DNA from: Roseobacter fucihabitans
GTDB lineage: Bacteria > Pseudomonadota > Alphaproteobacteria > Rhodobacterales > Rhodobacteraceae
Assembly (NCBI RefSeq): GCF_014337925.2
Contig: NZ_CP143424.1
Location: 62,001 to 126,000, forward strand
DNA: 64,000 bases
Reading direction: 5' to 3'
The position numbers and the translations under genes are program-made. Under the pieces are notes generated by a model that did no database searches, was not told the DNA's origin, and worked only from the letters and a program-made list of their open reading frames with translations. This document shows, piece by piece, positions 5,124 to 28,322 of the stretch; the stretch's first letter is position 1, and every line of letters starts with the position of its first letter.

Positions 5124-5925
5124 ATGCTCGACCATCCAACACTGGATCAACTCAGAACGCTCAGGCTCGACGGCATGGCAGAAGCCTTTGCCGAGATGCA
5201 GACACAAGACGGCACAGCCGACTTGACCCATGCCGCCCTTACGGCAGATTTGCTATGCAAATCGCCTATCGGGTAATAAATGGCTGGGCCTGCTGATCGA
5301 CACAGAGGCCACGAGCCGCGAGACCAAACGCTTTGAAAGCCGCATGCGCACCGCGCGCTTGCGCCATGTCGGTGCCGCCCCCGAGGACGTGGATTACAAA
5401 ACCCGTCGAGGTCTGGACAAAGCGCTCTTCCAAAACCTGCTCACGGGTAAATGGATCAAAGACAAAAGGAACCTGATGATCACAGGCCCCTGCGGTGTCG
5501 GTAAAACCTGGCTGGCCTGTGCGTTGGCGCAAGCGGCGTGCCGAGAAGGCGTCACTGTCCTCTACAAACGCGCGACGCGTCTGTTTGATGAACTCGAATT
5601 GGCCCATGGCGATGGCCGCTTTCCACGCGTCTTCAAAACGCTGACGAAGACCCAGTTGCTCATTCTCGATGACTGGGGGCCTGATCGCCTGAATGCCAGC
5701 CAACGGCGAGACCTGATGGAGATTGTCGAGGATCGTTACGGCAATGGCTCAACTCTGATCACCAGCCAACTGCCCATCAGCACATGGCATGATGTCATCG
5801 GCGAGCCCACATTCGCCGACGCCATCCTCGACCGTCTCGTACACAACGCCTACCGGATCGAACTTGAAGGCCAATCGTTCAGAAAGCAGGAGGTCAAATC
5901 GGGTGACGAAACGCCCGCCAACTGA
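5124..5925 (+). pseudogene. istB: istB helper ATPase, disrupted by a 43-bp palindromic repeat
   Basis: IstB is the AAA+ ATPase that partners IstA. The gene starts at ATG 5124 after AGAGGA and reads MLDHPTLDQLRTLRLDGMAEAF up to LTHA, then hits a foreign 43-bp palindrome (5236-5278) that shifts the frame and gives stops at 5274. The frame resumes with WLGLLIDTEATSRETKRF, the Walker A GPCGVGKTWLACAL, Walker B LLILDDWG and the usual C terminus (DAILDRLVHNAYRIEL). Removing the insert rejoins HA-E-WLGLL as in intact family members. So inactivation was by this small insertion. Confidence 0.9.
5236..5278 (-). repeat. Palindromic insertion repeat, copy 1 (in istB)
   Basis: This 43-bp insert reads, on the minus strand, TATTACCCGATAGGCG, then ATTTGCATAGCAAAT (a stem with loop), then CTGCCGTAAGGG. 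It matches the other copies in this window in layout: a CCCGGCA-like left block, a central ATTGC/GCAAT stem, and a CCGAGAGG-like right block (here diverged). The coding sequence on both sides joins cleanly if it is removed. Confidence 0.8.
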
Positions 5926-6032
5926 TAGCTAAAACCTCGAGCCTCAACACGGCGCGCCAAAGGTGGCCGGATGCCCCGGTTTAGGTGGCCGGATGTTGTC
6001 GGAATGACCGGCCGGATGCTCCGGAATGCGCA

Positions 6033-6527
6033 GACGGCCAACGCGCCTTGGAACGTTCTTGCTACTTGAGGGCATCACGCCCCAAGGCGCGGCACCAACT
6101 GGCCGACTTTTACTCCGCCCCAATGGCAGGGTTTTACGCCGCCGTTGACACACTGCACCCGGCATACGAGATCTCGACCCTCAGGAGTAAAGTGCAAGAC
6201 CAGCTTTGCCAATCTACGTTGGAGCCCGAAAAGGTACAGCGATTGCTGGGTTATGGGAAAAAGTGCTTGCAAAACACTATGCGATTAGACGACCCAATCC
6301 ACTATCGTTAGTGGACACTATCAACACACTCTATGGCCCGTCAGAGCAGCTAGGGCAGACGTGTCTTGCGACGGATGTTCTTAAAAAACCTTGTCGGCAG
6401 CATCTTTCGATGTCTGGAGTTTCTTCGTCATCTCTGTCTTCTGATCAATAAGATGAACCAGAATTCCTCCGTTACTCAAAGCGTCAAATCTATCCCAAAG
6501 GCGCTGATATAAGACAAATATAGGACC
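6033..6527. other. IS remnants without an intact gene
   Basis: No convincing gene lies here. 6298-6350 resembles 4054-4106 (the segment just inside the IS66 end upstream of its tnpA) over about 53 bases with only a few mismatches, so it is a relic of a related IS66 end. It includes the same TCCACTA/TAGTGGA palindrome. 6033-6297 can be read as an open frame (5985-6311), but that frame also runs through the IS21 terminus and I recognise no protein in it. I see nothing in 6351-6527. Confidence 0.6.
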
Positions 6528-8222
6528 TTATTCGTACTCCACCGGAGCGTAGAGCTCTTCAAAAGCAGCTGCAACGGCACTGGCAATCTCGGGATTACCC
6601 ACCCCCAGTCCGGCCATCGCCGTGCCCGGAGCGAAGACCTCTGGATCGGTCAAATAGGTTGTCAGGGATTGTGCATCCCACACCCCAGTTGTTCCGCGTA
6701 AGGACGTCGAATAGTTGGCAAAAGCAGTTGAAGCGATCCTGCGTCCGGCCACATTATGCAGCGATGGACCCGCTCCATGAACGTTTTCCTCGTAGGAATG
6801 GCATTCGTTGCATCCCGTCAGCACATCCCGCGCAGTTTCTGCCATATCTGCCGCCATGCCCTTTTCAGTCAGGCGTATAACCAGGTCCGTCAATGGATCG
6901 ACCCGTGGTTCGGTTTCCAGAATGACCACCTCTTCTGTATCAAGCCAGAGTGCGAGCTTCTTGGGCCCTACCTGCATCACATCCCGGATGCGCTGTCCGA
7001 TTGGGATCGTTTCAAGGAATACGATCTGATCATCCTTTATGCGGGCGCGGAACAGGGTTCTTTCGCGCAGGGACCCTATCAGCAGATCCCCGTCCCAAGT
7101 CTCGTGAAAACCCTCGACCAGTGCCAAGGAGGACACTGCCGCAGACGGCAGCCAAGCATAGACCGGCCCTCTGTATATTTCATGTCGACCCACGCGTCCT
7201 TCGGTCGGGGCGGGAATGCCACTGTAGAGCGTGCCGAGGTTTTCGAGCGGCCAGCCGTAATTTTCCTGATCAACAATCAGGTTCAGTTCATCCCCACCGC
7301 GCATTCCGTGTTCAGTGGTCCATAACCGCCCCTGAGAATCGAGGGCGACACCCTGAAGGTTTCGGTGTCCTTTAGAATAATGTCGCGACTGCCCCGTAGT
7401 TAGATTGATCTCGATGGTCTTGCCATAGTCGCTGTCATCGGACTGGATACCTGAATCGGGGCGGTAGAGCCCTTCGCGGTGATATTCCCCATTGCCTAGA
7501 TAAACAATATTGGGTTCCTTGAATGCCAGACGCCCCCCAGCCATATAGCCAACGAGCAACTCGCGCGTGTCGTTGAACTCCAGACAGGGGCTTGAGTCGT
7601 AGATGATCTCCCAGTCGCCAGCGGACGCGGTCAGATCGTAAATTGATGTCACGCTGCGTGGGATATCGAGCTTACTGATCCGGGACCGGTAGCATTCGTT
7701 TTCGACATCAATAAAGGTGTAAGAACTCAGAAAGCCGCGAAACGCGGGGCTGTCGATGAATTCCAAGTCGTTGTAGCGCACAGCGTAATCCTTGGCGATC
7801 TGATCGGGATATTTATCGGCTGCCAGTCGGATATAGGCCTCCAAACCGTTTTCAGGGACCGCCAGATCTGTCTTGATAAGTCCCTTCTCCTCGTCCAGCA
7901 CTAGAATGGTGCCGCGGCTGTGCTGCACGATGACATCGTCATTCCAGAGCGCCAAGGCACCACCGACCCGGAATTCCTGATCCGGCATCAGATATACTTT
8001 GCCCCGCAACGTCAGATATGTGGTCTCAATCCGCCCGACCATAACATGCGTTTCGGTCGGCAAACCCAAATCCCGGCGTCCCCTGGTGATGATGCGTTCT
8101 CCCAACCCAAAGATGGGTTCGATCTTTTCGCGATGTCCTAGATATCCAACGCCTAGGCTCCCTAGGCCAACACAGGCAACAACAAAAAGTAAAGTTACAA
8201 TCAGAACTAGGCGGCGTTTCAC
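6528..8222 (-). CDS. Membrane-anchored glucose/sorbosone dehydrogenase-like protein with C-terminal cytochrome c
   Basis: About 564 aa from the GTG at 8222, chosen because GGAG lies 7 bases upstream and it puts a signal anchor (RRLVLIVTLLFVVACVGLG) at the very N terminus; the frame also opens at a TTG at 8285. The middle resembles the beta-propeller sugar dehydrogenase family (GVALDSQGRLWTTEHGMRGGDELN, YGWP), which usually uses PQQ. Near the C terminus CNECHSYEE is a heme c site (CxxCH) with PGTAMAG as likely methionine ligand. It would oxidise a sugar or polymer end in the periplasm and pass electrons to the respiratory chain. The substrate is unknown. It stands alone beside polysaccharide genes. 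Confidence 0.75.
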   Translation of the reverse strand: MKRRLVLIVTLLFVVACVGLGSLGVGYLGHREKIEPIFGLGERIITRGRRDLGLPTETHVMVGRIETTYLTLRGKVYLMPDQEFRVGGALALWNDDVIVQHSRGTILVLDEEKGLIKTDLAVPENGLEAYIRLAADKYPDQIAKDYAVRYNDLEFIDSPAFRGFLSSYTFIDVENECYRSRISKLDIPRSVTSIYDLTASAGDWEIIYDSSPCLEFNDTRELLVGYMAGGRLAFKEPNIVYLGNGEYHREGLYRPDSGIQSDDSDYGKTIEINLTTGQSRHYSKGHRNLQGVALDSQGRLWTTEHGMRGGDELNLIVDQENYGWPLENLGTLYSGIPAPTEGRVGRHEIYRGPVYAWLPSAAVSSLALVEGFHETWDGDLLIGSLRERTLFRARIKDDQIVFLETIPIGQRIRDVMQVGPKKLALWLDTEEVVILETEPRVDPLTDLVIRLTEKGMAADMAETARDVLTGCNECHSYEENVHGAGPSLHNVAGRRIASTAFANYSTSLRGTTGVWDAQSLTTYLTDPEVFAPGTAMAGLGVGNPEIASAVAAAFEELYAPVEYE

Positions 8223-8369
8223 AAGAAAGCTCCAGTCTTTGAAAAAAGTCAGGCGGTGTATCTCTATACAACTTGGGTAAAGCAAGTGAAAAGATTCGGG
8301 GCCTTCGGGATGTAGGGCTGAGTGGAATTATATCCCGCTATAATGATATTCATCGTTTTCTAATAATTC

Positions 8370-9842
8370 TTACACTGCCAATCTATTATGGGAGCCTTGT
8401 GATGAGTATGCGTTATCCTCTCTGGCCGCTTGGGCTTTAGGCGGGAACCGGGTGTAGTGGTTTCGGTTCGGTGCCGTTTTTGCAGAAAAGACGGTGCCCC
8501 CTATCTGGGCGGCTACGTCGTATTGAACGAACCCTGCAAGCGCGCCAAAAATTAGCCAGCTTACCGGCGTCAGGGTCGAATTTGGGATCATGTAGATCAG
8601 GTTACCCATCCCGATTAGCCCCAGCGCAAGCGTTTCAGGCGGTATCGCCTTACGCCGCCTGACGATCGGCAGAAACAGGATTGGCAGTGTAAGTAATCCG
8701 AAAAGGCCGATGTATCCGATCCATCCGCTGCGCCCGATTGTCTGGATCCAACGCCCTTCCGAAATGGATATGTCCTGACCCAGTTCATTGAAGATACGGT
8801 CACGCTTATAGCCACCCCACCCGGTGAGCGGTTTGAGAAACGCCCGTTCCAGTAACGCGTCTTCGTTGTCTAATCGGTATTGGAGGGATCCCGCGCGGGC
8901 CGCAGAGACCGTTGCAGCTACTGATGTGATCTGTTTGATCGGGATGAAATTAGCCTGCCGTAGCCCTGGGTAAAACAAGATTATCAGCGCGACCGCGACG
9001 ACGACGCGCACCTGCATCCTGGTCCACAAGCCAAAGAAAACGGCCAGACTTAAAACGCCGATAGCGAAAGCCCCGAGATTACGGCTGATCATCAGGATAA
9101 AAAATAGCCAGAGCGCCGCCCAAAACCACTGAATCTTCTTTTCGGCCTTCCACAGGGCAGCTGCTGCAATAGTTGCGGTAAAAATGAAAAAGCCGACCCA
9201 CAGCCCGTGCTGCAGAAAAACCATGGGGCGGAATCCGTCCCGGATGTGCTGCGCAAAGGAGTGCTGGTAATAGCCGTAGACCCAGGCATGCAACTGTGGG
9301 CTGAGGCGAATTTCGATCAGCATCAAAAGCGTATATATAAGCCCCATGATCGTGATGACACGGAGCAAGGCGCGATGTGTTTCTGGCGTGGCGAGGTAGC
9401 GTCGAGCAAACAGAAAGGGCGTGATGTAGAGAGCGAACGCCGCTATAGCACTGATCACGTCCCAAGGGCGCAGGGCGGGCAGCAAAGTGGGTCCGAACCG
9501 CAGGGCTTCTTGGTTGTTTAACACTGATCCGACAATACTCAGCAGACTCAAGCTTAGGCAGAGCGTAAGCCCGAAGCGGAAACTGCGACTGGATAGCGTA
9601 GTCGGCGCCTGCGTCAGGGCGTCGGTGAATTTGTTCCAGTACAATGCGAGCGCGAGCATCAGACCAATGGTGATCGCACTGGTTTTGTTAATATCGGGAA
9701 GCCCCGGAAGATTGATAGCATATGCTTCGGGCAAGAACAGATAGGGTAACAGCACACCCCAGAGGAGCGCTGGCACGGCAGGCAGCGCCGCGAACAGCAT
9801 CGGTGCGACGATCAACCAGAGCAAGAGTGCAGCTGTTGCCAA
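8370..9842 (-). CDS. O-antigen ligase/polymerase-like membrane protein
   Basis: 490 aa with about ten to twelve hydrophobic segments spread over the whole length. A long periplasmic-type loop (about residues 290-350) contains NEDALLERAFLKPLTGWGGYKRDRIF, which resembles the region preceding the conserved loop of Wzy/WaaL/ExoQ-like proteins (compare ...PLTGWGWG...). Such proteins polymerise or ligate lipid-linked oligosaccharides at the outer face of the inner membrane. The apparent start is a TTG at 9842 with AGGA upstream, so the true start is uncertain. It is separated from its neighbours and probably has its own promoter. It could be a polymerase or a ligase. Confidence 0.7.
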   Translation of the reverse strand: MATAALLLWLIVAPMLFAALPAVPALLWGVLLPYLFLPEAYAINLPGLPDINKTSAITIGLMLALALYWNKFTDALTQAPTTLSSRSFRFGLTLCLSLSLLSIVGSVLNNQEALRFGPTLLPALRPWDVISAIAAFALYITPFLFARRYLATPETHRALLRVITIMGLIYTLLMLIEIRLSPQLHAWVYGYYQHSFAQHIRDGFRPMVFLQHGLWVGFFIFTATIAAAALWKAEKKIQWFWAALWLFFILMISRNLGAFAIGVLSLAVFFGLWTRMQVRVVVAVALIILFYPGLRQANFIPIKQITSVAATVSAARAGSLQYRLDNEDALLERAFLKPLTGWGGYKRDRIFNELGQDISISEGRWIQTIGRSGWIGYIGLFGLLTLPILFLPIVRRRKAIPPETLALGLIGMGNLIYMIPNSTLTPVSWLIFGALAGFVQYDVAAQIGGTVFSAKTAPNRNHYTRFPPKAQAAREDNAYSSQGSHNRLAV

Positions 9843-10204
9843 TTTGTCTAATCCTATTCAATGTCTTCCGGCCTCGCAGCCAACAGATCCCAGGCTCTTA
9901 TCATGTATTAATCAATGACCTGTTACAAACAGGCATCCTTACAGAGTCCATCCTCTGACAACACGCTCTGTCAATATTTATGAGAGCGAAGGCCTACCCA
10001 TCGCTACTCTATATGCCACTGGAAATGAAGCACGCACCAAAGCGCCGGGACGGCCCGCCCAAAAATGAGATGTCAGTCACATCAGCGGCTGAACCCCGAA
10101 AAACTAGAGAATTTTACTTTGTCTGACCTGAGCCACCTATGGGATTGGCGGCGTCAGGCGCGTAGGGGGCAGCTGATTCTTTCTAATTTGGACGGTGTGT
10201 TTCC
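9843..10204. other. Intergenic stretch
   Basis: I see no gene here. A plus-strand open frame starting at 10065 does not resemble a protein and reads across the istB relic in the wrong frame. The stretch may hold the promoter of the ligase-like gene, which would lie near 9850-9950 on the minus strand, but no clear motif can be picked by eye. Confidence 0.5.
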
Positions 10205-10393
10205 TTCGCCCTATTTGAAGAACCCGTTATGGCGTTTACTGGAACCAGACTCGATCACCATTGCCATATTCTCGAGATCGAAAACAACAGCTATCGCTTC
10301 CAAGCCAACTCTGAGGTTGCAAACAATACAGAAGGCGACACCAGCATTGAGCACATCATGGCGAACAAGCCTCAATGGCTCAACAGATGAACT
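10205..10393 (+). pseudogene. istB-like ATPase, C-terminal relic
   Basis: The frame beginning FALFEEPVMAF and reading TRLDHHCHILEIENNSYRF matches the C terminus of IS21 helper ATPases (compare the LLDRLTHHCHILE-type ending). Only about 60 residues remain, and the Walker motifs are absent. It differs from the istB at 5.1-5.9 kb, so it is a relic of a second IS21-type element. Confidence 0.6.
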
Positions 10394-10556
10394 CTCATTT
10401 AAATTCAACATACTATTAAAATATCTTGATCACGGTGCTCTAAAAATCCGTGTTTGTGCCATAATTTTTACTGCCTTTTCTATTTAGAATATCATATTGA
10501 CCAATTGTTTAGCGTGTTGGACTTTGAAACGACCCAAAAAGGATGATCTAAAAAAG

Positions 10557-11204
10557 ATGAAATTACAATATTTAGTCCATGAAGCCGCTACCACTCTAAG
10601 GGCCCTTTTTTCGGCAGCAAGTAGGCGTGCCAGGCAAAAACAGTTCATCCACAAAATGGATATCATGGGCGGCGAACGCATCATTGATCTGGGCGGCACA
10701 CCTCATTTCTGGAGAAACTTTCCCCATAAAGTACATGTCACGGTCGTAAACTTACCCGGTTCCTTTGACCCTTCACAGGCGGATGGGTTAGATAATGTGG
10801 TATGTTTGGCTGGTAATGCCTGTAACATGTCCAATTTCGAGGACAAATCCTTTGATATCTGCTTTAGTAACAGCGTTATCGAACATGTCGGCGGCCCGCC
10901 CAACGAACGTGCTTTTGCCGGTGAGGCGAGGCGCTTATCTGAGCGCTATTGGGTGCAAACGCCCTCGATCTGGTTCCCGGTTGAAGCTCACACATACGTC
11001 CCATTTTGGTGGTTTCTTCCAGCGCCGGTCAAGCGTTTTTTGCGCAACCGCTGGTCTCGGATTCTACCAGAATGGAACGAGATGATCGAAGGCACTACAG
11101 TTATTCTGTATAAGGATTTCGCTCGGATGTTCCCAGACGCAGAAATCTGGACCGAACGCTTCTTGCTGCTGCCCAAATCTTATGTGGCATTTCGCAAACA
11201 ATAG
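10557..11204 (+). CDS. Class I SAM-dependent methyltransferase
   Basis: About 215 aa from ATG 10557 (a TTG at 10497 gives a longer form). The SAM fold is seen in GGERIIDLGGTPHFW (motif I, with DLGG for the usual D-G-G), VTVVNL, the acidic loop NMSNFEDKSFDICFSNSVIEHV (motif with D-x-x-F/SNSVIEH typical of methyltransferase type 11), and a C-terminal part rich in aromatic residues. It may methylate a sugar or lipid carrier intermediate. The base composition is richer in A/T than the neighbouring polysaccharide genes, and it is flanked by transposon relics on both sides, which suggests separate acquisition. Confidence 0.75.
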   Translation: MKLQYLVHEAATTLRALFSAASRRARQKQFIHKMDIMGGERIIDLGGTPHFWRNFPHKVHVTVVNLPGSFDPSQADGLDNVVCLAGNACNMSNFEDKSFDICFSNSVIEHVGGPPNERAFAGEARRLSERYWVQTPSIWFPVEAHTYVPFWWFLPAPVKRFLRNRWSRILPEWNEMIEGTTVILYKDFARMFPDAEIWTERFLLLPKSYVAFRKQ

Positions 11205-11543
11205 ATGGGTTCACAAACGAAGTACCAATTCTGTATCAAAACAGGGTATTGTATGAGTTTATCAATGGGGAGCACCTACTAACATCTTAGCCGTTTTTGT
11301 TCTCTAATCTGTCAATACGCTTTCTCACTTTGGGGGCTATTTAACGTCTGAGGTTGCCTTGGCTCTCTTAGAACTCACTGCCTCATGATAGGGTTGGCTG
11401 GGTGTGGATTGGCAAGGTTGAAACCGCGATCAGATCGATAATCTGCTCTGTCGCTACAAAATCGGTGCCGTGATCCGCGCCATCACTCGAGCGTCTTCCC
11501 GTGTGGGAACTGTGAATTAGGAATCCTCGTTGTTGTTGTTTTT
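11205..11543. other. Intergenic stretch, no gene seen
   Basis: About 340 bases between the methyltransferase and the IS5 fragment. No open frame with recognisable protein sequence, RNA gene or terminator with a clear stem and T-run was found. It is probably decayed mobile-element sequence. Confidence 0.5.
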
Positions 11544-11832
11544 CTAGGTTCAGGTCCTATTAATTGCCTTGATGCTGAGTTGTTGTCATGATTCACGAAC
11601 CCCAATGATTTGGGAGACAGATGAGCAATCTTTATTGGCTGACAGAAGCGCAGATGGTACGACTTCGCCCATTCCTTCCAAGGAGCCGAGGTCGACAGCG
11701 CGTTGATGAACGGCGCCTCCTGAGCGGGATTATCTTCATCAATCGCAATGGTTACGTTGGTGTGATGCACCCGCAGACTATGGCCCACCCAAGACCTTGT
11801 ACAACCGCTGGAAGCGATGGAGCGATATGGGT
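11544..11832 (+). repeat. IS5-family left end fragment (copy A of 289-bp direct repeat)
   Basis: Identical by eye to 27707-27995. It starts CTAGGTTCAGGTCC, holds the 5' end of an IS5-type (IS427-like) transposase gene from ATG 11621 (MSNLYWLTEAQMVRLRPF, LLSGIIFINRNG), and stops at GATATGGGT. After RNRNG-type sequence the frame is lost by what looks like one missing base near 11755; the other frame reads DAPADYGP and YNRWKRWSDMG as expected. Here the element is cut and joined to an IS110 end. Confidence 0.85.
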
Positions 11833-11913
11833 AAGCGATGGGGGTGGACGCCCCCGGCGGCATCGAAGGTGCCGAGGTAGTGGGTGTTGAAACCCTCTAC
11901 GAGGAGAGCGTCC

Positions 11914-12617
11914 ATGAACGAGGTTAGCATTATCGGCCTGGATCTGGCCAAGAACATACTTCAGGCGCATGGTGCCGGAGCCGATGGATTGGTTGTGTTC
12001 TGGCGCAAGTTGTCACGTGCTGAGCTGTTAAAATTTCTGAGCGAGCTGCCGCCACGCTTGGTGGCAATGAAGGCCTGTGCGAGTGCCCATCACTGGGGGC
12101 GGGCGATCGGCGATCTCGGTCACACAGCCAGGTTGATCCCGTCTGCCCACGTCAAACCTTTTGTGAAGCGTCAAAAGAATGACATGGCCGATGCAGAGGC
12201 GATTGCCGAGGCCGCGTCCCGTCCGACCATGTATTACCCGGCAAGCGATGCATGCATCGCCGAGAGGGCGGTTTGTTGCAGTGAAGAGCGAGGAACAGCA
12301 GGCAGGGGCAATGGCTTATCGCACTCGCGATCTTTTGGTTCGGCAGCGCACCCAGACGATCGACGCCCCACGAGCGCGTTTGGCCGAACAGGGAATTGTT
12401 GCGCCCGTCGGTCCTGCCCATGTCAGCCGCCTTGCCGCGGTTGTCGATGGCGACGATGGCGCGTTGCCTGCGGCGGTGCAGGATCTGGCGCGACTGCTCT
12501 TGGACCAGATCGCAGGTTTGAGCAAGAAGGTCGCGGAATTGGATGCTGATTTACCTAGGCGTGCAAGCACAGACGATACTGCACGAAGGCTGACCACCCT
12601 TCCAGGCATCGGTCCGA
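11914..12617 (+). pseudogene. IS110-family transposase, N-terminal and middle part, disrupted
   Basis: DEDD-type recombinase of IS110. It starts at ATG 11914 after GAGGAG, reads MNEVSIIGLDLAKNILQAHG (first catalytic Asp) and KNDMADAEAIAEAA, then is broken at 12231 by a 37-bp palindromic repeat. The rest continues in another frame from 12269 (RFVAVKSEEQQAGAMAYRTR) to LTTLPGIGPMV, where an IS3 element is inserted at 12618. The C-terminal Ser-containing domain does not directly follow the IS3 element; a related C-terminal fragment begins at 14071. Confidence 0.88.
12232..12268 (+). repeat. Palindromic insertion repeat, copy 2 (in IS110)
   Basis: A 37-bp insert between the codons for M and R of the IS110 motif RPT-M-RFVAV. 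It reads TATTACCCGGCAA, then GCGATGCATGCATCGC (a perfect palindrome), then CGAGAGGG. Its removal restores the IS110 frame exactly. The left and right blocks match the other copies, while the central stem sequence differs but is compensated. Confidence 0.85.
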
Positions 12618-12689
12618 TGGTAATCCCCCCTAAAATTAGTGGTGTTCAAAAGTAGAATTTTCTCGGCAAGATATCTGAGGAGATTTACG

Positions 12690-12997
12690 ATGAAGAACGG
12701 ACGATATAGCGACGCGCAGATTATGGCGGTGTTGAAGCAGGCAGAGGGCGGTGTGCCGGTTTCTGAGCTGTGCCGCGCGCATGGCATGAGCAGCGCCAGT
12801 TTCTATAAATGGCGGGCCAGGTTTGGCGGTATGCATTGCACGGCAGGGTATCGCGTAGCGATGTCCCGAGAGTGGATGCGTCGATGATATCCGAGATGAA
12901 GGATATGGCCGAAGAGAACCGCCGTCTGAAGCGCATGTACGCAGAGATGAGCATGCAGAACGACTTGCTGAAGGAGGCGCTTGGAAAAAAGCGCTGA
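12690..12997 (+). pseudogene. IS3 orfA, disrupted
   Basis: Helix-turn-helix protein of an IS3 element (transposase-8 type). It starts at ATG 12690 after AGGAG and reads MKNGRYSDAQIMAVLKQAEGG, ELCRAHGMSSASFYKWRARFGGM. It is interrupted at 12834-12874 by a 41-bp palindrome that shifts the frame; the rest follows in another frame as DASMISEMKDMAEENRRLKRMYAEM up to KEALGKKR. This second part is the leucine-zipper-like coiled coil by which OrfA and OrfAB pair. Confidence 0.88.
12834..12874 (+). repeat. Palindromic insertion repeat, copy 3 (in IS3 orfA)
   Basis: A 41-bp insert between GGM and DASM of orfA. It reads CATTGCACGGCAGGG, then TATCGCGTAGCGATG (stem-loop), then TCCCGAGAGTG. The length is not a multiple of three, so it breaks the frame. 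Confidence 0.88.
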
Positions 12998-13004
12998 GGC
13001 CGTC

Positions 13005-13047
13005 CACTGCCCGGCAGGGTATTGCGCAGCAATGTCCCGAGAGGGTC
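13005..13047 (+). repeat. Palindromic insertion repeat, copy 4 (orfA/orfB junction)
   Basis: A 40-bp core, CACTGCCCGGCAGGG then TATTGCGCAGCAATG then TCCCGAGAGG, followed by GTC that duplicates the GTC just before it (13002-13004). This is the one copy with a possible 3-bp target duplication. Removing 43 bases restores the expected sequence at the start of orfB (LRPSKAREMAMKAV). It is the best-preserved copy and a good reference for the family. Confidence 0.88.
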
Positions 13048-13202
13048 GAAGGCGAGAGATGGCCATGAAGGCAGTCGCGCATCACGGCGTCAGTATCGCG
13101 CTCGCGTGCCGTGCGTTCGAGATCAGCGAGACCTGCTACAGATACAGTCCCGAACTGAGTGACGAGAACGAAGAGATCGCGGATTGGTTTGAACGCTTGA
13201 CC

Positions 13203-13238
13203 ATTGCCTGACAGGGCATTGCGAATGCCCGAGAGGGG
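13203..13238 (+). repeat. Palindromic insertion repeat, copy 5 (in IS3 orfB)
   Basis: A 36-bp insert: ATTGCCTGACAGGGC, then ATTGCGAATGCCC, then GAGAGGGG. The length is a multiple of three, but the insert brings an in-frame TGA. It lies between the codons for T and A/N of the orfB motif ERLT-ANKRNWGFG. The central stem is shorter than in the other copies. Confidence 0.85.
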
Positions 13239-13326
13239 GCCAACAAACGGAACTGGGGCTTCGGGTTGTGCTTTTTTGTATCTGCGCAACGTTCAGGGCT
13301 ATGGGTGGAACCATAAGCGCGTCTAT

Positions 13327-13368
13327 CCCATTGGCTGACAGGCGATTGCACAGCAATCTGCCGAGAGG
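13327..13368 (+). repeat. Palindromic insertion repeat, copy 6 (in IS3 orfB)
   Basis: A 42-bp insert: CCCATTGGCTGACAGG, then CGATTGCACAGCAATCTG, then CCGAGAGG. It splits the orfB motif [14 protein letters not shown] and introduces an in-frame TGA. The ATTGC/GCAAT stem and CCGAGAGG end match the other copies closely. Confidence 0.87.
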
Positions 13369-14070
13369 CGGATCTACTGCGAGTTGGAGCTGAACCTGCG
13401 GATCAAACCTGAGAAACGCTTGAAGCGAGACAAACCAGAACCACTGGCGGTGCCTGAGCGGCCAAATGAGACATGGTCCATGGATTTTATGGCGGATCAG
13501 CTTGCGGATGGTCGGTCGATCAGGACGTTGAACGTTTTGGATGACTTTAATCGCGAAGGCCTGGCCATTGAGGTGGACTTCTCGCTGCCTGCAGAACGGG
13601 TCGTGCGCAGCTTGAACCAGATCATCGAATGGCGTGGTCAGCCGCAAGTAATTCGTGTCGATAATGGCCCCGAATATGTCAGCGGCAAGCTGATGCAATG
13701 GGCTGAGAAACGCAATGTTCGGCTGGAATACATCCAGCCCGGCAAGCCGCAGCAGAACGCTTATATCGAACGCTACAACCGCACCGTACGCGGCGAATGG
13801 CTGAGCCAATATATCTTTGAAACCATCGAGGAGGCACAAGAGCAAGCGACTGAATGGCTCTGGACTTACAACAACGAGCGACCCAACATGGGCATAGGTG
13901 GCATCACACCCGCCACGAAACTGAAAACAGCCGCCTGAATTCTACGGCTGAACCCCATTAAAAATGGGGGGGATTACCATCATAAGACGATTCTTCGTGC
14001 TAAAGCGATCCCGTCTGGAAGACGGGGGGGTTCAAACCAATGAGTGGATACTAAATTCTACGCCTAACAG

Positions 14071-14475
14071 GACGCTGAGGCAAAACGGCTCCAAACAATT
14101 CCAGGCATCGGCCCGCAAAGCGCGTTGGCGATCCAAGCCTTTTCTCCACTGGCAACGATTTTCCGAACTGGTCACAGTTTCGCAGCCTGGCTGGGTCTCG
14201 TGCCCCGTCAACATTCGACAGGAGGTAAGCAGAAGCTTGAGCGCATCACCAAGATGGGCCAACGAGATATACGACTACGACTGATCATTGGGGCGAGCTC
14301 CGTGATTGCCGCAACACAGAAGAAAGGGCGTTGCGATAATCAATGGCTTGCGAATGTGATATCTAGGAAACCGCGTCTTGTTGTCGCCGTAGCCCTTGCC
14401 AATCGAATGGCGCGCCAGCTTTGGGCCATGATGACGAAGGAAATGAATTACGAAATTCGGGGTGCCGCTGCATAA
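14071..14475 (+). pseudogene. IS110-family transposase, C-terminal fragment
   Basis: The frame DAEAKRLQTIPGIGP, FAAWLGLVPRQHSTGGKQKL, ITKMGQRDIR and VALANRMARQLWAMM is the C-terminal half of an IS110 transposase, including the region with the catalytic serine. It overlaps in content with the fragment ending at 12617 (both contain the PGIGP segment, with different flanking residues), so the two are not simply one gene split by the IS3 element; they derive from two related copies or a rearrangement. 14476-14730 has no gene and looks like the noncoding right end of this element. Confidence 0.85.
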
Positions 14476-14730
14476 GCGGCTCTACGGATACAGGCAGGAC
14501 TGAAAGGATGAAAGAACGGTACGGAGCACGGATCAAAGAGATCGACCGGGCCACCCAGAATTCTGTTACAGTTGAATTGAAACCGTCGTTAGGATTGGGA
14601 CCCAGACGCGCATCTCCATAAGGGCCGGCCGCGTGTCGCGACACATCAGAGGCCGGACACCAGCTTGCACCTGATCTTGCAGTCTAAAACGTTCGGGATT
14701 AATCAGTTAACGGGGGTGTCCACACCATCA

Positions 14731-20313: not shown

Positions 20314-20525
20314 TTCAACACGCTTCTTTTCGGTTCGACCTCTGAGTACGGCCTATTCTGCCTCATGTCGAGATTGCATTTCCAATACTGTTTTCAAGCA
20401 AGTGGGGTGTATGGAATAGGCCCAGCGTGCCGTCGCCGAGGGTCTCGAACACGGGTGAAGTTTGATTGAACTACCCCGCTGGTCAGGGTATCGTCTCACA
20501 AAATTTAAGACGGGCATTTTCGGGT

Positions 20526-21653: not shown

Positions 21654-21739
21654 AAATGCATCTGCATGCAGGTCCTTCGAGTATGCAGGCCAGATTGGAA
21701 ACCCGACGTTTCAGGTAATGTTTGGAAAGCCAGTGCAAA

Positions 21740-22609
21740 CTATTTCTCTTGCATCACAATCTGGCGCAGCCGGTTATCTTCCAGATCACAGTCCTTATCG
21801 ACACTCTCAAAGTAATCCCAATCTCTCGTATCGTCATGGATGGAATTCACAGCGTCACCCCGACGCATTTTTACTTTTTCAAAAAATTCGCGGCTTTGGA
21901 TTTGATAATGGTTCAATTGAAAGATCTCGTTTTCCGAAATTGTCTTCGATGAACAGGCATCTTTGATCTTGTGGATATGTAACTGCGAAAATGTCTTCAG
22001 GGCAGATGTTCTGCAAATCCATTTGGTCATTTGGTGGGGACCAAGTTGCGGATGCCGCATGACGAAAGATTTCCGTACACTTTCAGGCTGACGGTCCAAC
22101 CCGTTGCTGCCGAAAACGGACCAGTTGGTGTAAATTACATCTGTACCAATGAAATCAGACAGCCTGTCCGATATTTTCGATCCATCCTTGCAAAACCAGA
22201 ACTCATCGATGTCGGCCGTAAGCAACCATTCAAAATCCTGACGGATGTTGAAGCGCTCTATGACTTCCCAATAATGCTCCAACTGATGCCATTTTTTGGG
22301 TAGGTAGATATATTCTACACGCCCTCCCTCGACAAAGCTTTCGGCAATCTTTCTTGAGCCATCCGTACTGCCATTATCAATCAGAAAAATCTTTCCCGCG
22401 CCCTGATCAAGATGGTGGTCGATCCATTCCCGCAGGCCCGACTCTTCATTTTTCATGATCGCCAAAACAGCGAGGTTACCTTTGTAGGATTGTTTTTCTT
22501 TCAGCCGCTTCTTCTGCCTTAAAGCATCGTTTCTACGATTATTCCACTGCCTAAAGCGCTTCACGAAAGCACTGTTTTTCGAAAGCCAGTAGGTGAACGC
22601 CTTAGCCAT
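21740..22609 (-). CDS. Glycosyltransferase, GT2/GT92-like
   Basis: About 289 aa from ATG 22609 (MAKAFTYWLSK). After a basic, charged N-terminal linker the catalytic domain reads LAVLAIMKNEESGLREWIDHHLDQG, IFLIDNGSTDGSRKIAESF, LLTADIDEFWF (a D-x-D-E type metal/nucleotide site) and LNHYQIQSREFFEKVK. This is the layout of the glycosyltransferase 2-like/DUF23 group. No membrane segment is seen, so it is likely a cytoplasmic enzyme that extends the repeat unit. Its third-position and overall composition is lower in GC than pgm and rml next to it. Confidence 0.8.
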   Translation of the reverse strand: MAKAFTYWLSKNSAFVKRFRQWNNRRNDALRQKKRLKEKQSYKGNLAVLAIMKNEESGLREWIDHHLDQGAGKIFLIDNGSTDGSRKIAESFVEGGRVEYIYLPKKWHQLEHYWEVIERFNIRQDFEWLLTADIDEFWFCKDGSKISDRLSDFIGTDVIYTNWSVFGSNGLDRQPESVRKSFVMRHPQLGPHQMTKWICRTSALKTFSQLHIHKIKDACSSKTISENEIFQLNHYQIQSREFFEKVKMRRGDAVNSIHDDTRDWDYFESVDKDCDLEDNRLRQIVMQEK

Positions 22610-22711
22610 CTGCAAGTTACCTTTGCTTTATTTTATATTCTTCCTCTGCCTTCACATAGCAGCAGAGTTCAGTCACGTATCCAAGAGATATAGCCGGTGT
22701 CGTTCCGCGTT

Positions 22712-24082
22712 TCACAGGGTATCCCTGAGGGCACCGAGGGCCCTGGCCAGTAAGGTTTGCGCCACTACGGGGTCATTGGTCTCAATGTAGAGCCGCAATT
22801 CGGGGGCGTTTCCGGAGGGGCGGATGTGGATGACATCGCCGTCTGTTAGAGTCAGGCGCAGCCCGTCGGTCAAATCCATATTATGTTCTTGCTTGCCCAG
22901 ACCCGCCAGAAACGCAGCGCGGGTGACGGGGTCGTTCTGCCACTTGGCCAGCAGAGCGCGGCTCTTGTCCTGGTCTACGTTTTGCAAGCGGTCCGCGACT
23001 GTGACCACGGGGGGTTCCTGCGCCACGCGCGCGGCGATGCCCCTCCGCCCAGCGTATAGCGTCATGAGGATCGGCAGGGTGCAATCACGCGTCACCAGAG
23101 CGGGGATTGGGCCCGCCGGACCCGTCGCGTCAAACCCGAGCAGGAAGCCGCCATTGGCCTCATAGCCCACAACAGAGCCGCTGGCGGTTTCCATCGCGGC
23201 AATGACAAAAGGCGAGCCGATTTGCGTCAGCTTGACCTCTTTGAAGCTCTTTTGCGTCACCCCGCTGTTGGAGGAGATCGGCGTGGCGATCACCTCTGCG
23301 CCCAGAACCTGCGCCGTGATCTGACCCAGAATATCGCCCGGCACCACACGCCCGGTCTCATCCGCCAACAAAGGTCGGTCAGAATCCCCATCCGTGGAGA
23401 CCAGCGCGTTCAAGTCATGGGTTTTCACCCACTCGGCGATTTGCGCGCGGGTATCCGGGTCCACCGCTTCGGTATCCACGGGGATGAAATGCTCTGAGCG
23501 ACCGAGTTCGATCACCTCTGCCCCGAGCCCCGCAAGGATGCGCATCAGATCATCGCGCCCTACCGCGCTATGAGTGTAAACGCCGATGCGCTGGCCCTGA
23601 AGCGCGCGCGCCCCAAAAGCATCGACATAGCGCGCTACATAGCGGTCCGCGGCCAGGACGTCGGTTTCCAGCGCGCCCGGCACACCCGCGAAGGCGGGTG
23701 TCTCGTCGAGATGTGCCAGGATCGCGGCCTCATCCGCCTTGGTGATCTCGCCCGTTACCGTGTAGAATTTCAACCCGTTGCGATCGGCGGGAATGTGGCT
23801 GCCGGTGACCATCACCGCGCCTGCACCCGCCGCTTGAGCCGCCAGCGCCAGCGCGGGCGTGGGCAATGCACCGCAATCGATCACGCGGGTCCCGCGCGCG
23901 CGCGCCGCTGCGATCACATCACCTGCAATGCGTGGCGAGGAAGGGCGCAGATCGCGCCCGACACATAAGATACCCCCCGCATCGCAGGCCGCCAGAAACG
24001 CCTGCACATGGGCGGTGATCAACGCGGGCGTCATGCCCGTCACGAGCCCACGCAGCCCGCTTGTTCCGAATTTGACTGTCAT
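22712..24082 (-). CDS. Phosphomannomutase/phosphoglucosamine-mutase family protein
   Basis: 456 aa alpha-D-phosphohexomutase. All four active-site loops are visible: phosphoserine loop MVTGSHIPADRNG, metal loop STDGDSDRPLLAD, sugar-binding loop VVGYEANGGFLLG, and phosphate-binding RPSGNAPELRLYI. The enzyme interconverts hexose 6- and 1-phosphates. Being last in the rml operon, 27 bases after rmlA, it may feed glucose-1-phosphate to RmlA or mannose-1-phosphate to the GDP-mannose enzyme at 59.8 kb. The changed sugar-binding loop (EANGG) makes the exact substrate uncertain. Confidence 0.88.
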   Translation of the reverse strand: MTVKFGTSGLRGLVTGMTPALITAHVQAFLAACDAGGILCVGRDLRPSSPRIAGDVIAAARARGTRVIDCGALPTPALALAAQAAGAGAVMVTGSHIPADRNGLKFYTVTGEITKADEAAILAHLDETPAFAGVPGALETDVLAADRYVARYVDAFGARALQGQRIGVYTHSAVGRDDLMRILAGLGAEVIELGRSEHFIPVDTEAVDPDTRAQIAEWVKTHDLNALVSTDGDSDRPLLADETGRVVPGDILGQITAQVLGAEVIATPISSNSGVTQKSFKEVKLTQIGSPFVIAAMETASGSVVGYEANGGFLLGFDATGPAGPIPALVTRDCTLPILMTLYAGRRGIAARVAQEPPVVTVADRLQNVDQDKSRALLAKWQNDPVTRAAFLAGLGKQEHNMDLTDGLRLTLTDGDVIHIRPSGNAPELRLYIETNDPVVAQTLLARALGALRDTL

Positions 24083-24109
24083 GATCGATCCCCGGTTTGG
24101 CGGAAGGTT

Positions 24110-24976
24110 TCAGAGCTTGCTCAGATAGGTGCCGTAATCGTTCTTGGCGTATTTCTTGGCTTCGCCTGCGAGGTCCTCGCGTGAAATCCAGCCCAGTTCA
24201 AAGGCGATTTCCTCGGGGCAACCGATCTGCTGGCCCTGGCGTTTTTCGATGGTGCGCACGAAATTCCCCGCATCCAGAAGGCTGTCATGCGTGCCCGTAT
24301 CAAGCCAGGCATAGCCGCGCCCCATGCGTTGGACGCGCAGGGTTTTTTCAGCCAGATACATCTCCAGCAAGCTGGTGATCTCCACCTCACCGCGCGCAGA
24401 GGGCTTCACCGCGCGCGCTTTGGCGGGTGCGGTGCCATCGACAAAATAAAGTCCGGTGACCGCGTGGTTGGAGGGGGGGATTTCGGGTTTTTCGATGATC
24501 CCGCGCACCACGCCGGCCTCGTCGAAATCCACCACGCCGTAGCGTTCGGGATCGGCCACCTGATAGCCGAAAACCGTGGCCCCGTGGGGCTGTTCATCCG
24601 CTGCCGCCATCAATTTGGGTAGGGCGTGACCAAAGAATATGTTATCCCCCAGCACCAAGGCTGAAGGGGCCCCAGCCAGAAAATCCTCCGCCAGGATGAA
24701 GGCCTGCGCGAGGCCATCTGGCGAGGGTTGCACGATGTAGGTGAGGCTCACGCCCCATTGCGATCCATCCCCCAGCATGCGCTGGAATTGCGCCTGATCT
24801 TCGGGCGTGGTGATCATCGCGATCTCGCGAATACCGGCCAGCATCAGCACCGAGAGCGGATAATAGATCATCGGTTTGTCATAGATCGGCAGCAACTGCT
24901 TGGAGACGCCCAGCGTGATCGGATAGAGCCGCGTGCCCGAGCCACCCGCCAGAATGATGCCTTTGCGCTGTGTCAT
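24110..24976 (-). CDS. rmlA: Glucose-1-phosphate thymidylyltransferase
   Basis: First enzyme of dTDP-L-rhamnose synthesis: dTTP plus glucose-1-phosphate gives dTDP-glucose. 288 aa, the usual length. It has the nucleotide-binding signature [14 protein letters not shown] at the N terminus, then [28 protein letters not shown] (metal-binding Asp), [25 protein letters not shown] and [16 protein letters not shown]. It follows rmlD by 12 bases. All catalytic regions are present and it should be functional. Confidence 0.96.
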
Positions 24977-24988
24977 GGGATAGCTCCT

Positions 24989-25834
24989 TTAGGGGGTCAG
25001 ATCGGCCAGAACCTGCGCCAGGCCCGCGCGCCAATCGGGGCGTTCGATGCCGAAGGCGGATGTGGTTGTGGTACAGTTGAGCCGGGAATTCGCAGGGCGT
25101 TTGGCCGGGGTGGGATATTGGTCCGTGGTGATGTCGGTGACATCCACACTCAGATCGCTTTGCGCAAAGATTTCGCGTGCGAAATCGGCCCAGCTGACGT
25201 CCGGAGCCCCGCTGAAATGATAGGTGCCCGATTTTGAGGGGTCCGCGTGCAGCGCGCGCGCGATTTTCATGCAGGCGGCGGCAATATCGCGCGCCGGGGT
25301 CGGCCCGCCGATCTGATCCCCCACGATTGTAAGGGCGTCGCGTTCTGCCCCCAGCCGCCGCATGGTTCTCACGAAATTATTGCCATGCGCGGAAAACACC
25401 CAGGCCGTGCGCAGGATCGCATAGGTTCCACCGGCAGCCGCCACGCCTTTTTCTCCGCCCAGCTTGCTGGCCCCGTAAACGCCCAGAGGCCCGGTGGGCG
25501 CGTCCGGTTGCCAAGGTGCTGAGCCGGAGCCGTCAAAGACATAATCGGTCGAGATATGTACAAACGGGATGCCACGCGCCGCAGCGGCTGCGGCCATCGC
25601 CGTCGGGGCCATGGCGTTGACGATCATCGCCGTGTCGCGATTTTCCTCGGCCTTATCCACAGCCGTATAGGCGGCGGCATTGATCACCGCATCCGCGTCC
25701 GTAGCCGCAATCACCGCTTCGCAGGCACCGGGATCGGTGAGATCCGCATCCGCGCGCCCCAGACAGGTCACCCCGTCAAAGAGCGCCAGTTCCGTAGCGA
25801 CCTGCCCGGTTTGGCCAAAGACGAGAACATTCAT
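24989..25834 (-). CDS. rmlD: dTDP-4-dehydrorhamnose reductase
   Basis: Last step to dTDP-L-rhamnose: NAD(P)H reduction of the 4-keto sugar. About 281 aa from ATG 25834 ([16 protein letters not shown]), whose first bases overlap the rmlB stop (ATGA), so translation is probably coupled; the longer open frame to 25912 is rmlB sequence. It has the Rossmann motif [36 protein letters not shown] and the catalytic YGASKLGGE (YxxxK), all standard for RmlD. Confidence 0.96.
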
Positions 25835-26874
25835 GCCTTGACGCCCAACCGTGCGCCCACGCCGTCGCGATCTTGTAACGCGCGCCACCAGGCCTCGTTG
25901 TCCAGATACCACTGCACGGTTTTGCGCAGGCCTTCCTCGACGGTAACGGACGGACGCCAGCCCAGTTCTTCGCGCATCCGTGTGGGGTCAATCGCATAGC
26001 GCGCATCATGGCCGGGTCGGTCGGTCACGAAACGGATCTGATCGCTGTAGGAGCCTGCCGGTTTGGGGCGCAATTCATCCAGGATTGCGCAGAGCGTTTG
26101 CACCAGTTCCAGGTTCGTGCGCTCGTTTTCGCCGCCAATGTTATAGCTGCGCCCGAGCTTGCCCCGTTGCAATACAGTCAGCAGCGCATCGGCGTGATCC
26201 TCGACATAGAGCCAGTCGCGCACATTGGAGCCATCGCCGTAAATCGGCAGGTCTTTCCCGGCCAGCGCGTTCAGGATCACCACCGGGATCAGCTTTTCGG
26301 GGAAGTGATAGGGGCCGTAATTATTGGAACAATTCGTCATCACGATGGGTAACCCGTAGGTCTCCCCCCAGGCGCGCACCAGATGATCGCTGGCCGCTTT
26401 GGAGGCGGAATAGGGGCTGCGCGGATCATAGGGCGTGGTTTCGGTGAACTGCCCGGTTGGCCCCAGCGAGCCGAAGACCTCATCGGTGGAGATATGATGG
26501 AAACGGAAGCCCTCGGGCTTGCCCTGCGTAGCCCAATAGGCGCGCGCGGCTTCCAGCAGGTGATAGGTGCCGGTGATGTTCGTCTCGATAAAATCGCCGG
26601 GCCCGTCGATGGAGCGGTCCACATGGGATTCCGCGGCCAGATGCATTACGGCGTCGGGCTTATGTGTGGCAAACACCCGGTCGAGTGCTGCGCGGTCACG
26701 GATGTCGGCCTGCTCGAAAGCATAGGCGGGATGATCCGCCACGCTCGCCACATTATCGAGACAGGCGGCATAGGTCAGCGCGTCGAGATTCACGACGCTG
26801 TAACCTCGCGCAATCGCCTGGCGCACGACGGCGGACCCGATGAAGCCCGCACCCCCCGTAACCAGAAGCTTCAT
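25831..26874 (-). CDS. rmlB: dTDP-glucose 4,6-dehydratase
   Basis: Second step: dTDP-glucose to the 4-keto-6-deoxy sugar. About 347 aa from ATG 26874 ([16 protein letters not shown]), just after the rmlC stop at 26879; the open frame further upstream is rmlC sequence. Seen are the NAD motif [36 protein letters not shown], and the catalytic [15 protein letters not shown]. The TDEVFG motif with its Asp-Glu pair is specific for 4,6-dehydratases. It has the usual length and appears intact. Confidence 0.97.
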
Positions 26875-26878
26875 GGAC

Positions 26879-27442
26879 TTATCCTTCATAGGTAAACGGG
26901 CTGTTGAAATTCGCAAGACCCGGTGCCGCGGCGTCTTTTTCGGACAAAACAGGCTCTAAATCGTCCAATTCCCAATCGATCCCGATCTGTGGGCAATCAA
27001 AACGTATCGCCCCATCACAGTCCGGCGCGTAGTAATCAGAGCATTTATAGATGATTTCGGTCTCCGGCACACGTGTCGCAAAGCCGTGCAGGAAACCGGT
27101 GGGCACCAGAATCTGGCGGCCATTCTCAAAGCTCAACTCGGCACCCACCCATTGGCCATAGGTCGGCGAGCCGCGCCGGATATCGACCACCACATCGAAA
27201 AACGCGCCGCGCCCGCAGCGCACCAGTTTCGCCTGCGCATGGGGGGGGGATTGGAAATGCAACCCGCGCACGGTGCCCGCCTGCATGGAGAGCGAATGAT
27301 TATCCTGCACCCAAGCGTAATCGAGCCCCTGTTCGGCCATCGCCCGCGCGCTCCAGCTTTCGCTGAAAAACCCGCGCGCATCGCCAAACCGCCGCGGCGT
27401 CAGGATAAAAACACCCGCCAGTTTCGTCTTCTCAATCTGCAA
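26879..27442 (-). CDS. rmlC: dTDP-4-dehydrorhamnose 3,5-epimerase
   Basis: Third step of the pathway. 187 aa cupin. Typical segments: [27 protein letters not shown] (with the catalytic His), [51 protein letters not shown] (with the catalytic Tyr region) and IGIDW. It is the first gene of the minus-strand operon rmlC-rmlB-rmlD-rmlA-mutase. The promoter should lie in 27443-27706, between the gene and the IS5 fragment; I can pick no clear -35/-10 pair there. Confidence 0.96.
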
Positions 27443-27706
27443 CTCTTCATCCTCACCGTGATCGCGCCTTCAATACACCGGGGCCCGATCAGATTAAACA
27501 TGTATCCGCATATCCTTCCGGCACCGGATGGCATGGTGGCGCAAAACAATGTTCCAAAGTTTAAGATTCCTACACAATCGGCAAAGAGCACACGCGCAGG
27601 CACCCGGCGGAACCACTCCGCATACTCTCAGGGGGTCGGATGGGGAATCGTTGCACGACAGGGCGTCATCTGCTCCGCCTTACCCGTATCATTTTTCGAG
27701 ATCTGC

Positions 27707-27995
27707 CTAGGTTCAGGTCCTATTAATTGCCTTGATGCTGAGTTGTTGTCATGATTCACGAACCCCAATGATTTGGGAGACAGATGAGCAATCTTTATTG
27801 GCTGACAGAAGCGCAGATGGTACGACTTCGCCCATTCCTTCCAAGGAGCCGAGGTCGACAGCGCGTTGATGAACGGCGCCTCCTGAGCGGGATTATCTTC
27901 ATCAATCGCAATGGTTACGTTGGTGTGATGCACCCGCAGACTATGGCCCACCCAAGACCTTGTACAACCGCTGGAAGCGATGGAGCGATATGGGT
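27707..27995 (+). repeat. IS5-family left end fragment (copy B of 289-bp direct repeat)
   Basis: Identical by eye to 11544-11832, in the same orientation and with the same frame-breaking lesion. Here the sequence continues into more of the IS5 element (to about 28438), so copy B is the longer one and copy A was cut. The two copies enclose 14.7-27.4 kb, the rhamnose and exporter module. Confidence 0.9.
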
Positions 27996-28056
27996 GTATT
28001 CGCTCGGATAATGACAGGGCTCGCGGCGGAGGCACCCGACAATAAAACCATCTCAA

Positions 28057-28096
28057 TCCCCTCTCAGCGATGAAAGCATCGCCTGCCGGGCAATGG
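28057..28096 (-). repeat. Palindromic insertion repeat, copy 7 (in IS5, at a deletion point)
   Basis: On the plus strand it reads TCCCCTCTCA, then GCGATGAAAGCATCGC (stem GCGATG/CATCGC), then CTGCCGGGCAATGG. That is the reverse complement layout of the other copies (CCGGCA block, stem, GAGAGG block). The expected IS5 coding sequence between about KTISI and SDYTG is missing at this place, so a deletion seems to have ended at or inside the palindrome. Confidence 0.78.
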
Positions 28097-28280
28097 TACA
28101 GCGATTACACCGGTGCGGCGGCTTTGCTGAGCGGTTTAGCGGATGCGGAATGGTTACTCGCCGACCGGGGTTATGATGCAGCTTGGTTCCGAGAAGCCTT
28201 GTCAGACAGGGGCACAAGGCCCTGCGTCCCAGGGCGTAAGTCACGCAAGAAGGTCGTTAGATACGACAAATGCCGCAACC

Positions 28281-28322
28281 GCCCCTCTCGTGACATTGCT
28301 TTACAATGCACTGCCGGGCAAC
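28281..28322 (-). repeat. Palindromic insertion repeat, copy 8 (in IS5)
   Basis: A 42-bp insert reading GCCCCTCTCGTGAC, then ATTGCTTTACAAT, then GCACTGCCGGGCAAC on the plus strand, the reverse orientation of copies 2-6. It splits the IS5 C-terminal motif RNR-IENLFGMLKD (here RNR/LRTCLACSK after frame loss). The CTCTCG and TGCCGGGCA blocks agree with the family. Confidence 0.85.

Follow-up and report, generated by a model that had tools for sequence, protein, structure and literature searches.

Hairpin elements of 36–45 bp in transposase genes of Roseobacter fucihabitans: probable very small mobile elements living mainly in mobile DNA

How do short palindromes come to lie inside one transposase gene after another, and are they themselves mobile? 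The question is raised by a stretch of 64,000 nucleotides from Roseobacter fucihabitans (contig NZ_CP143424.1, positions 62,001–126,000; hereafter the window, with positions counted from its first letter), in which the original prediction had recognized eight imperfect palindromes, all in transposase genes of insertion sequences (IS). We conclude that they probably belong to a single family of mobile elements, present in many marine and related bacteria, that are very small, non-coding and unable to move on their own; an enzyme acting in trans would move them, and mobile DNA is their main home. For the search, 19 sequences, including three window copies (13005, 13329 and 28283), were made into a covariance model of the 41-nucleotide class (R1), which was run over the full 64 kb using cmsearch without filtering. 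Eight matches with E values from 2e-15 to 9e-5 were obtained, and the next-ranked match had E = 0.21. All eight palindromes were thereby recovered, at or a few bases off the positions first proposed; the three contained in the model match by construction, while the other five were not part of it. The copies and two of their host elements are as follows.

5236–5278, minus strand: hairpin element of 43 bp, antisense in an istB gene, right block degenerate; cmsearch E = 7.4e-6.
12232–12268, plus strand: hairpin element of 37 bp, TATTACC variant, sense in an IS110 transposase; cmsearch E = 9.3e-5.
12834–12874, plus strand: hairpin element of 41 bp, sense in IS3 orfA; E = 4.7e-11; 41-bp insertion relative to loci L049 and L057.
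13005–13045, plus strand: hairpin element of 41 bp, sense at the IS3 orfA/orfB junction, shortly past an A6G run; E = 2e-15; 41-bp insertion.
13202–13237, plus strand: hairpin element of 36 bp, sense in IS3 orfB; E = 3.1e-7; 36-bp insertion.
13329–13369, plus strand: hairpin element of 41 bp, sense in IS3 orfB; E = 9.3e-13; gap of 42 bp relative to empty homologues.
28059–28095, minus strand: hairpin element of 37 bp, antisense in an IS5-type transposase; E = 1.7e-6; coincides with a loss of IS sequence of about 146–206 bp.
28283–28323, minus strand: hairpin element of 41 bp, antisense in the same IS5-type transposase as the 28059 copy; E = 1.7e-13.
12619–13985, plus strand: host IS3-family element with four copies, aligned to IS3 copies of named plasmids.
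27600–28500, plus strand: host IS5-type element region with two copies, ends not mapped, aligned to relatives.

Aligned with intact IS3 elements of Sulfitobacter plasmids, three of the four copies in the window IS3 are exact insertions (41, 41 and 36 bp), and the gap at the fourth (13329) is one base longer than the element. Joining the flanks of the IS110 copy (12232) lengthens the frame from 221 to 244 residues, with no empty homologue in the alignment. The IS5 copy at 28283 is compatible with a near-precise insertion in a gappy alignment, and at the 28059 copy the bases noted above are missing relative to related IS. For the istB copy (5236) no element-free homologue was present among the loci compared, and the joined flanks gave only 61 residues. 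The window thus holds three exact insertions and probably two or three more, which falls short of the seven copies whose removal had been proposed to mend a broken frame.

The window IS3 also carries one extra base in orfB, at 13272, relative to four aligned related IS3 copies; this lesion is separate from the hairpins. Related IS3 elements show two separate insertions at their orfA/orfB junction (window 13005–13045 and L050:558–598), about 12 bases apart and in opposite orientation, 3′ of the AAAAAAG frameshift site.

The unit of 36–45 bp consists of CAYTGCC (or TATTACC) followed by CGGCA, a short stem, perfect or once-bulged, with a small loop, GAGAGG and mostly a further G. Its ends are almost constant, and the sequence of the stem drifts yet still pairs. 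In the 19 aligned 41-nucleotide elements, 97.7% of the stem cells are paired and seven of the nine pairs are changed on both sides; none of 500 shuffles was as good and every slid control was far worse, so the shared blocks and the compensating stem had been described correctly. One unpaired T near the foot of the stem is invariant in this alignment. In 40 aligned elements CGGCA or a close variant precedes the stem, and no GTAG motif lies beside it. By inspection, the left end CAYTGCCCGGCA and the right end GAGAGGG are not inverted copies of each other; the palindrome is internal. Element lengths are mostly not a multiple of 3.

The sites studied are a chosen subset of the places listed by the searches, with those of this genome over-represented. 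The 231 unique sites hold 174 different hairpins, and the most frequent of these occupy 11, 9 and 8 listed sites in several IS families; the top two occur both in this genome and in others, and identical hairpins were found in several genera. The hairpin GGCGATTGCAAAGCAATCTGCC is listed 11 times and GTGCATGTTTACATGCAC nine times, four of the latter being near-duplicate flanks of one IS. A search of eight element-holding loci against Rfam 15 gave nothing above threshold over the element; at locus L413 an isrB match (Rfam 15) covers the element below its gathering score. RNase P RNA (RF00010) was found near one element-bearing IS3 (L016:167–589).

Insertion is precise, random in orientation and without target duplication, and it prefers RHC^G. 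Compared with IS of named plasmids at 68–79% identity, clean insertions of 36–45 bp occur in IS3, IS66 and IS1182-type elements. The cleanest empty-site case pairs an IS3 of Sulfitobacter pontiacus, which has one 41-bp antisense element, with an element-free relative from Sulfitobacter sp. W027; the two are identical at 697 of 746 aligned bases (93.4%), and the 41-bp gap is the sole gap. Since empty sites exist, the elements are not ordinary parts of the IS, which the original prediction had named as one of the outcomes that would undo it. No target duplication is present at the empty sites in the alignments. After thinning to 195 sites, the two flanks match over 4–9 bp at none, over 3 bp at one and over 2 bp at nine, and the 3-bp duplication (GTC) suspected earlier is not a feature of the family. 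RHC ends the left flank at 112 of these sites (control mean 20.8) and G begins the right flank at 144 (control mean 54.9). Relative to the transposase, 90 elements are sense and 107 antisense (197 sites, tblastx; strands of the library entries were set from Pfam, annotation or our own reading). Among 229 sites there are 19 pairs of homologous sites with an element at the same place; the hairpin is the same in three pairs and different in 16, in some by a few bases and in several wholly unrelated.

The concentration in transposase genes is real and strong, and it is not absolute. Flanks were compared by tblastx with a transposase library that was built partly from element-holding loci, its entries coming from the IS of the window or having been verified through Pfam or annotation. 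Transposase sequence flanks 197 of the 231 unique sites: 52 of 56 in this genome, 95 of 106 in other genomes of the family, 42 of 51 from a genome collection, 6 of 15 on viral contigs, both plasmid sites, and not the one further copy from genome G108. The four misses in this genome comprise three sites in an IS630-like element, with helix-turn-helix matches below curated cut-offs, and one beside istB, so that all 56 strict unique sites fetched from it lie in or beside IS genes. A further 37 model matches in this genome include 28 with transposase hits, seven sharing the IS630-like flanks, one beside istB and one degenerate copy without assignment (L384). The hosts in this genome belong to at least eight IS families by Pfam (IS3, IS5/IS1182, IS66, IS256, IS21, IS110, IS1595 and IS630-like, the names being our reading of domains and sequence), and host Pfam families include rve, DDE_Tnp_1, IS66, Mutator, IstB, IS1595, IS240 and DDE_3. 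Within the window, transposase-like stretches total 7,984 of 64,000 bases and contain all eight copies; as this is a minimum share and the window's own hosts are in the library, we claim no exact chance figure.

Exceptions include intergenic copies in G108, sites near lepA, lpxB, short-chain dehydrogenase/reductase (SDR)-type and ABC-transporter genes, phage regions and one RelE-like frame. The first proposal, that the palindromes occur only inside transposases, therefore holds for the 56 sites of this genome and nearly so for the family sample, and fails as an absolute rule on the intergenic and phage-gene copies. On three viral contigs from related phages (L134, L176 and L199) a C5 DNA methyltransferase gene carries an antisense element at one shared site, just past motif I; the three stems are different and each is paired, and the frame stays open through the element in two of the three. 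At L325 (about 1340–1620) an element adjoins or lies within a truncated RelE-like frame; few other genes apart from transposases are affected. Genome G108 has an intergenic motif of its own, CATCTTGCNAAATAAACTC, at 34 places (24 examined, L445–L468), which a hairpin element follows at a similar distance in several copies and not in others; as a general upstream partner of intergenic copies it was rejected, with 34 matches in G108 and none in six other genomes searched. Short GGCGGC-type matches (L094 and L282) may be plain terminators.

In this genome of 4.85 Mb (six contigs), at least 149 matches to the model were found at E ≤ 0.1 (150 of 3,327 candidates scored). The strict pattern TGCCCGGCAG-N14..24-GAGAGG gave 99 matches and no control match, and a looser pattern gave 144 against 11 in the control. 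In a family sample of 198 genomes, one per genus, the strict pattern occurs in 61, with control matches in three genomes, one each; at least four of the 61 (G014, G051, G085 and G134) have only a hairpin-less chance match, which leaves the element in about 57–61 of the genera sampled. In a class-wide sample it occurs in 16 of 289 genomes, 11 of which look hairpin-less by eye; of the five with a hairpin, three belong to this family (this genome among them) and two to other families. Among the matches listed from the genome collection, the named hosts are mostly Rhodobacterales and also include Vreelandella, Cohaesibacter and a Rhodospirillales bacterium.

Most element insertions break the transposase frame, and most of the hosts tested carry further lesions. 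When the flanks were joined by script in 22 host regions, one IS1182-type element gave a single 464-residue frame, and most of the others still had no full-length frame. Up to five elements lie in one IS of 1.3–1.4 kb. The IS3-type element with five is present in four nearly full copies and lacks 121 bp present in its relative L053; three full copies, 100% identical, exist of an IS with four elements, and the genome has no comparably similar copy that lacks them. Such element-bearing IS can evidently still be multiplied, as their multiple copies imply, presumably in trans, with most hosts decaying. An rve IS with 19 copies of the same score and an open 328-residue frame has no model match inside.

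A shortened multi-copy form exists of the IS630-like element (L376, L378, L379, L381, L382 and L392; contig C1 of this genome, G000), and its junction resembles a hybrid of two hairpin elements (L381 compared with L023); judging from these sequences, recombination between elements seems to have deleted the intervening DNA. A Y1 transposase gene present in three copies (C1:436639–436962) is cut short where a hairpin element begins. The window itself contains, on the minus strand at 73–420 (G000:C2:62073–62420), a stop-free Y1 (IS200-type) transposase gene.

The case for mobility is that the elements are dispersed, that they are inserted precisely and that the same hairpin occurs at several unrelated sites. 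In the mechanism we propose, an enzyme supplied in trans would recognize the ends, which are constant, together with the fold of the stem, and would copy or move the element; its substrate may be single-stranded DNA, cleaved and joined in a HUH-type reaction. A single-strand reaction of the HUH type fits because there is no target duplication and the structure is what is kept. The lack of target duplication, the preferred left target and the hairpin within the element are also what IS200/IS605-type elements have. The element would persist mainly because IS and phage DNA are dispensable; it would be amplified by IS transposition and carried between genera, and a true preference for mobile DNA may help it to persist.

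Several observations weigh against this explanation. In IS200/IS605 a guide 5′ of the hairpin is complementary to the cleavage site (PMC8266576), and, judged by eye only, the GGCA 5′ of the stem seems to have no simple pairing with the target RHC. No mobilizing enzyme was found when Y1_Tnp and RVT_1 matches were compared with the strict pattern across the 198 family genomes. The pattern occurs in 10 of 19 genomes with Y1_Tnp and 51 of 179 without, and in 22 of 54 with RVT_1 and 39 of 144 without, a weak excess in both cases in counts that include a few chance pattern matches; 51 of the 61 pattern-bearing genomes have no Y1_Tnp match. Transposition is, moreover, read from comparisons of sequences and was not seen directly. 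Thirty-four of the 231 unique sites had no transposase hit by tblastx (Pfam or similarity subsequently placed the four of this genome and several more, and the rest are non-transposase or without assignment), the viral contigs have transposase flanks at only 6 of 15 sites, and in genome G072 all three sites are outside recognized transposases. Finally, survival alone does not readily explain why this genome lacks intergenic copies, nor does strict targeting readily explain those of G108. A Y1 transposase was not retained as the mover on a weak excess only, nor was a reverse transcriptase, whose weak excess possibly reflects mobile-DNA load alone.

Why the copies lie where they do can be explained in more than one way. 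Insertion may be blind, with copies elsewhere lost and those in IS kept, amplified and moved between genera; we give such pure survival and hitchhiking somewhat under an even chance. It accords with the tested host IS, most of which remain broken with their flanks joined, with element-bearing IS in identical multiple copies (three full ones at 100%, for example), with the same hairpins in several genera and with the intergenic copies of G108. Intergenic DNA should tolerate many insertions, however, and yet this genome has no plainly intergenic copy among its 56 strict unique sites, and one IS may hold five elements; blind insertion would need the loss of nearly every intergenic copy here together with the retention of five in a single IS. 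These same 56 sites, all in or beside IS genes, the crowding of up to five elements into 1.3–1.4 kb, the location of all eight window copies in the 7,984 transposase-like bases (a lower bound) and the separate, opposite insertions about 12 bases apart in related IS3 elements would be expected if a host or hyperparasite system favoured transposase or other mobile DNA as the place to insert hairpins and so silenced it, and phage genes are struck too. We nevertheless consider such IS-directed insertion unlikely: there are intergenic copies in G108 and other genomes, 19 copies of the rve IS with its open 328-residue frame are untouched, no enzyme or guide is known and most tested hosts are broken in other ways as well. 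The G108 copies and the untouched, apparently active IS mean that targeting in its strict form fails. Rather doubtful, too, is an insertion-based defence, in which a system of the Roseobacter group (or of a hyperparasite) would write hairpins at RHC^G of transposases and invading DNA and break them singly; the hairpin sequence would be renewed or swapped while the ends and the fold were kept, and unrelated stems do occupy the same base position of homologous IS. We lean towards a slowly moving element that has mobile DNA as both its habitat and its vehicle, possibly with a real preference for it.

Two further explanations start from known systems. If the transposase were kept working by translational skipping or RNA splicing, as in T4 gene 60 or Magnusiomyces byp, the precise insertion, the resemblance of GAGAGG to a Shine–Dalgarno sequence, the multiple copies of element-bearing IS and the one IS1182-type element with an intact 464-residue frame on joining would all be accounted for. 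Random orientation (90 sense, 107 antisense) argues against bypass or splicing, as do the further lesions in most hosts and the 121 bp of L053 missing from the five-element IS3; as a general explanation it was rejected on orientation and on the lesions in most of the 22 joined hosts, and we regard it as highly improbable. Repetitive extragenic palindromic sequences (REPs) moved by a TnpA-REP (RAYT, REP-associated tyrosine transposase) enzyme would share the size, the hairpin, the dispersed copies, the intergenic location seen in G108 and the weak Y1_Tnp excess. This reading is nonetheless very unlikely in view of the absence of GTAG next to the stem, a location mostly in IS genes, the 51 of 61 pattern-bearing genomes without a Y1_Tnp match and a Y1 gene that is itself truncated where an element adjoins it.

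As very small mobile elements, the hairpins would rank among the smallest described, and their anatomy (constant ends, a drifting paired stem and no target duplication) strongly constrains the enzyme. Whereas REPs usually lie outside genes, these elements are concentrated in transposase genes, and it becomes testable whether transposons are targeted or are merely where such parasites survive. Element insertions account for some of the frame-broken IS in this group, and the elements can apparently give rise to deletions by which IS are shortened to derivatives resembling miniature inverted-repeat transposable elements (MITEs).

MITEs are short non-autonomous mobile DNAs with terminal inverted repeats and a target-site duplication. 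Inspection of the ends revealed no terminal inverted repeats here, and a flank match of 4–9 bp occurs at none of the 195 thinned sites. The original comparison with MITE/REP-like repeats thus stands as to dispersal, hairpin, precise insertion and recurrence of the same hairpin, and does not extend to the defining features of either class. With REP/REPIN sequences the elements share short palindromic units in many copies. REPs are described as having a GTAG-type tetranucleotide 5′ of the palindrome, as mostly extragenic and as tied to a Y1 TnpA-REP (PMC8266576), which processes a folded single strand (PMC8266576, PMC3116915, PMC12306157). The present elements have CGGCA or a near variant at that position in the 40 aligned, a minority of extragenic copies (197 of the 231 unique sites having transposase flanks), and Y1_Tnp in only 19 of 198 genomes, with the pattern in 10 of these. 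The main text of one REP survey (PMC12306157) does not contain the words transposase, Rhodobacter or Roseobacter. Translational bypass elements (T4 gene 60, Magnusiomyces byp) are described as short frame-breaking insertions (PMC5009743). Such elements would have a fixed orientation relative to the gene, unlike the hairpins, whose hosts are mostly, where tested, broken otherwise as well. Rickettsia palindromic elements are palindromic repeats in alphaproteobacterial protein genes; they are longer, in frame and tolerated, whereas the present unit of 36–45 bp is mostly not a multiple of 3 and lies in IS.

No earlier description of this hairpin family was found in a narrow search of the literature that covered neither subscription papers nor preprints. 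By analogy, the nearest in kind appear to be the small dispersed repeats (SDRs) of cyanobacteria and the yeast GC42 element. Elhai and colleagues are said to have described in 2008 the elements SDR4–SDR6 of Nostoc and its relatives, of 21–27 nucleotides, which share a hairpin with compensatory changes; these have reportedly been mobile in recent times and often lie within other mobile DNA, and they are not known to be concentrated in transposase genes. The hairpin element differs from them in sequence, size and phylum, with its RHC^G target and its unit of 36–45 bp. SDRs are also mentioned in PMC3116915. GC42 of yeast mitochondria is described as a 42-nucleotide palindromic mobile element with a constrained structure, horizontal transfer and an unsettled mechanism, with AG target nucleotides, a putative target duplication and a conserved stem sequence (PMC4478555). 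It is mitochondrial and has no preference for transposases, whereas the present element is bacterial and its stem drifts. What the hairpin elements have in common with the SDR and GC42 type is a length under about 50 nucleotides, the same sequence at unrelated sites and a hairpin kept by compensatory change.

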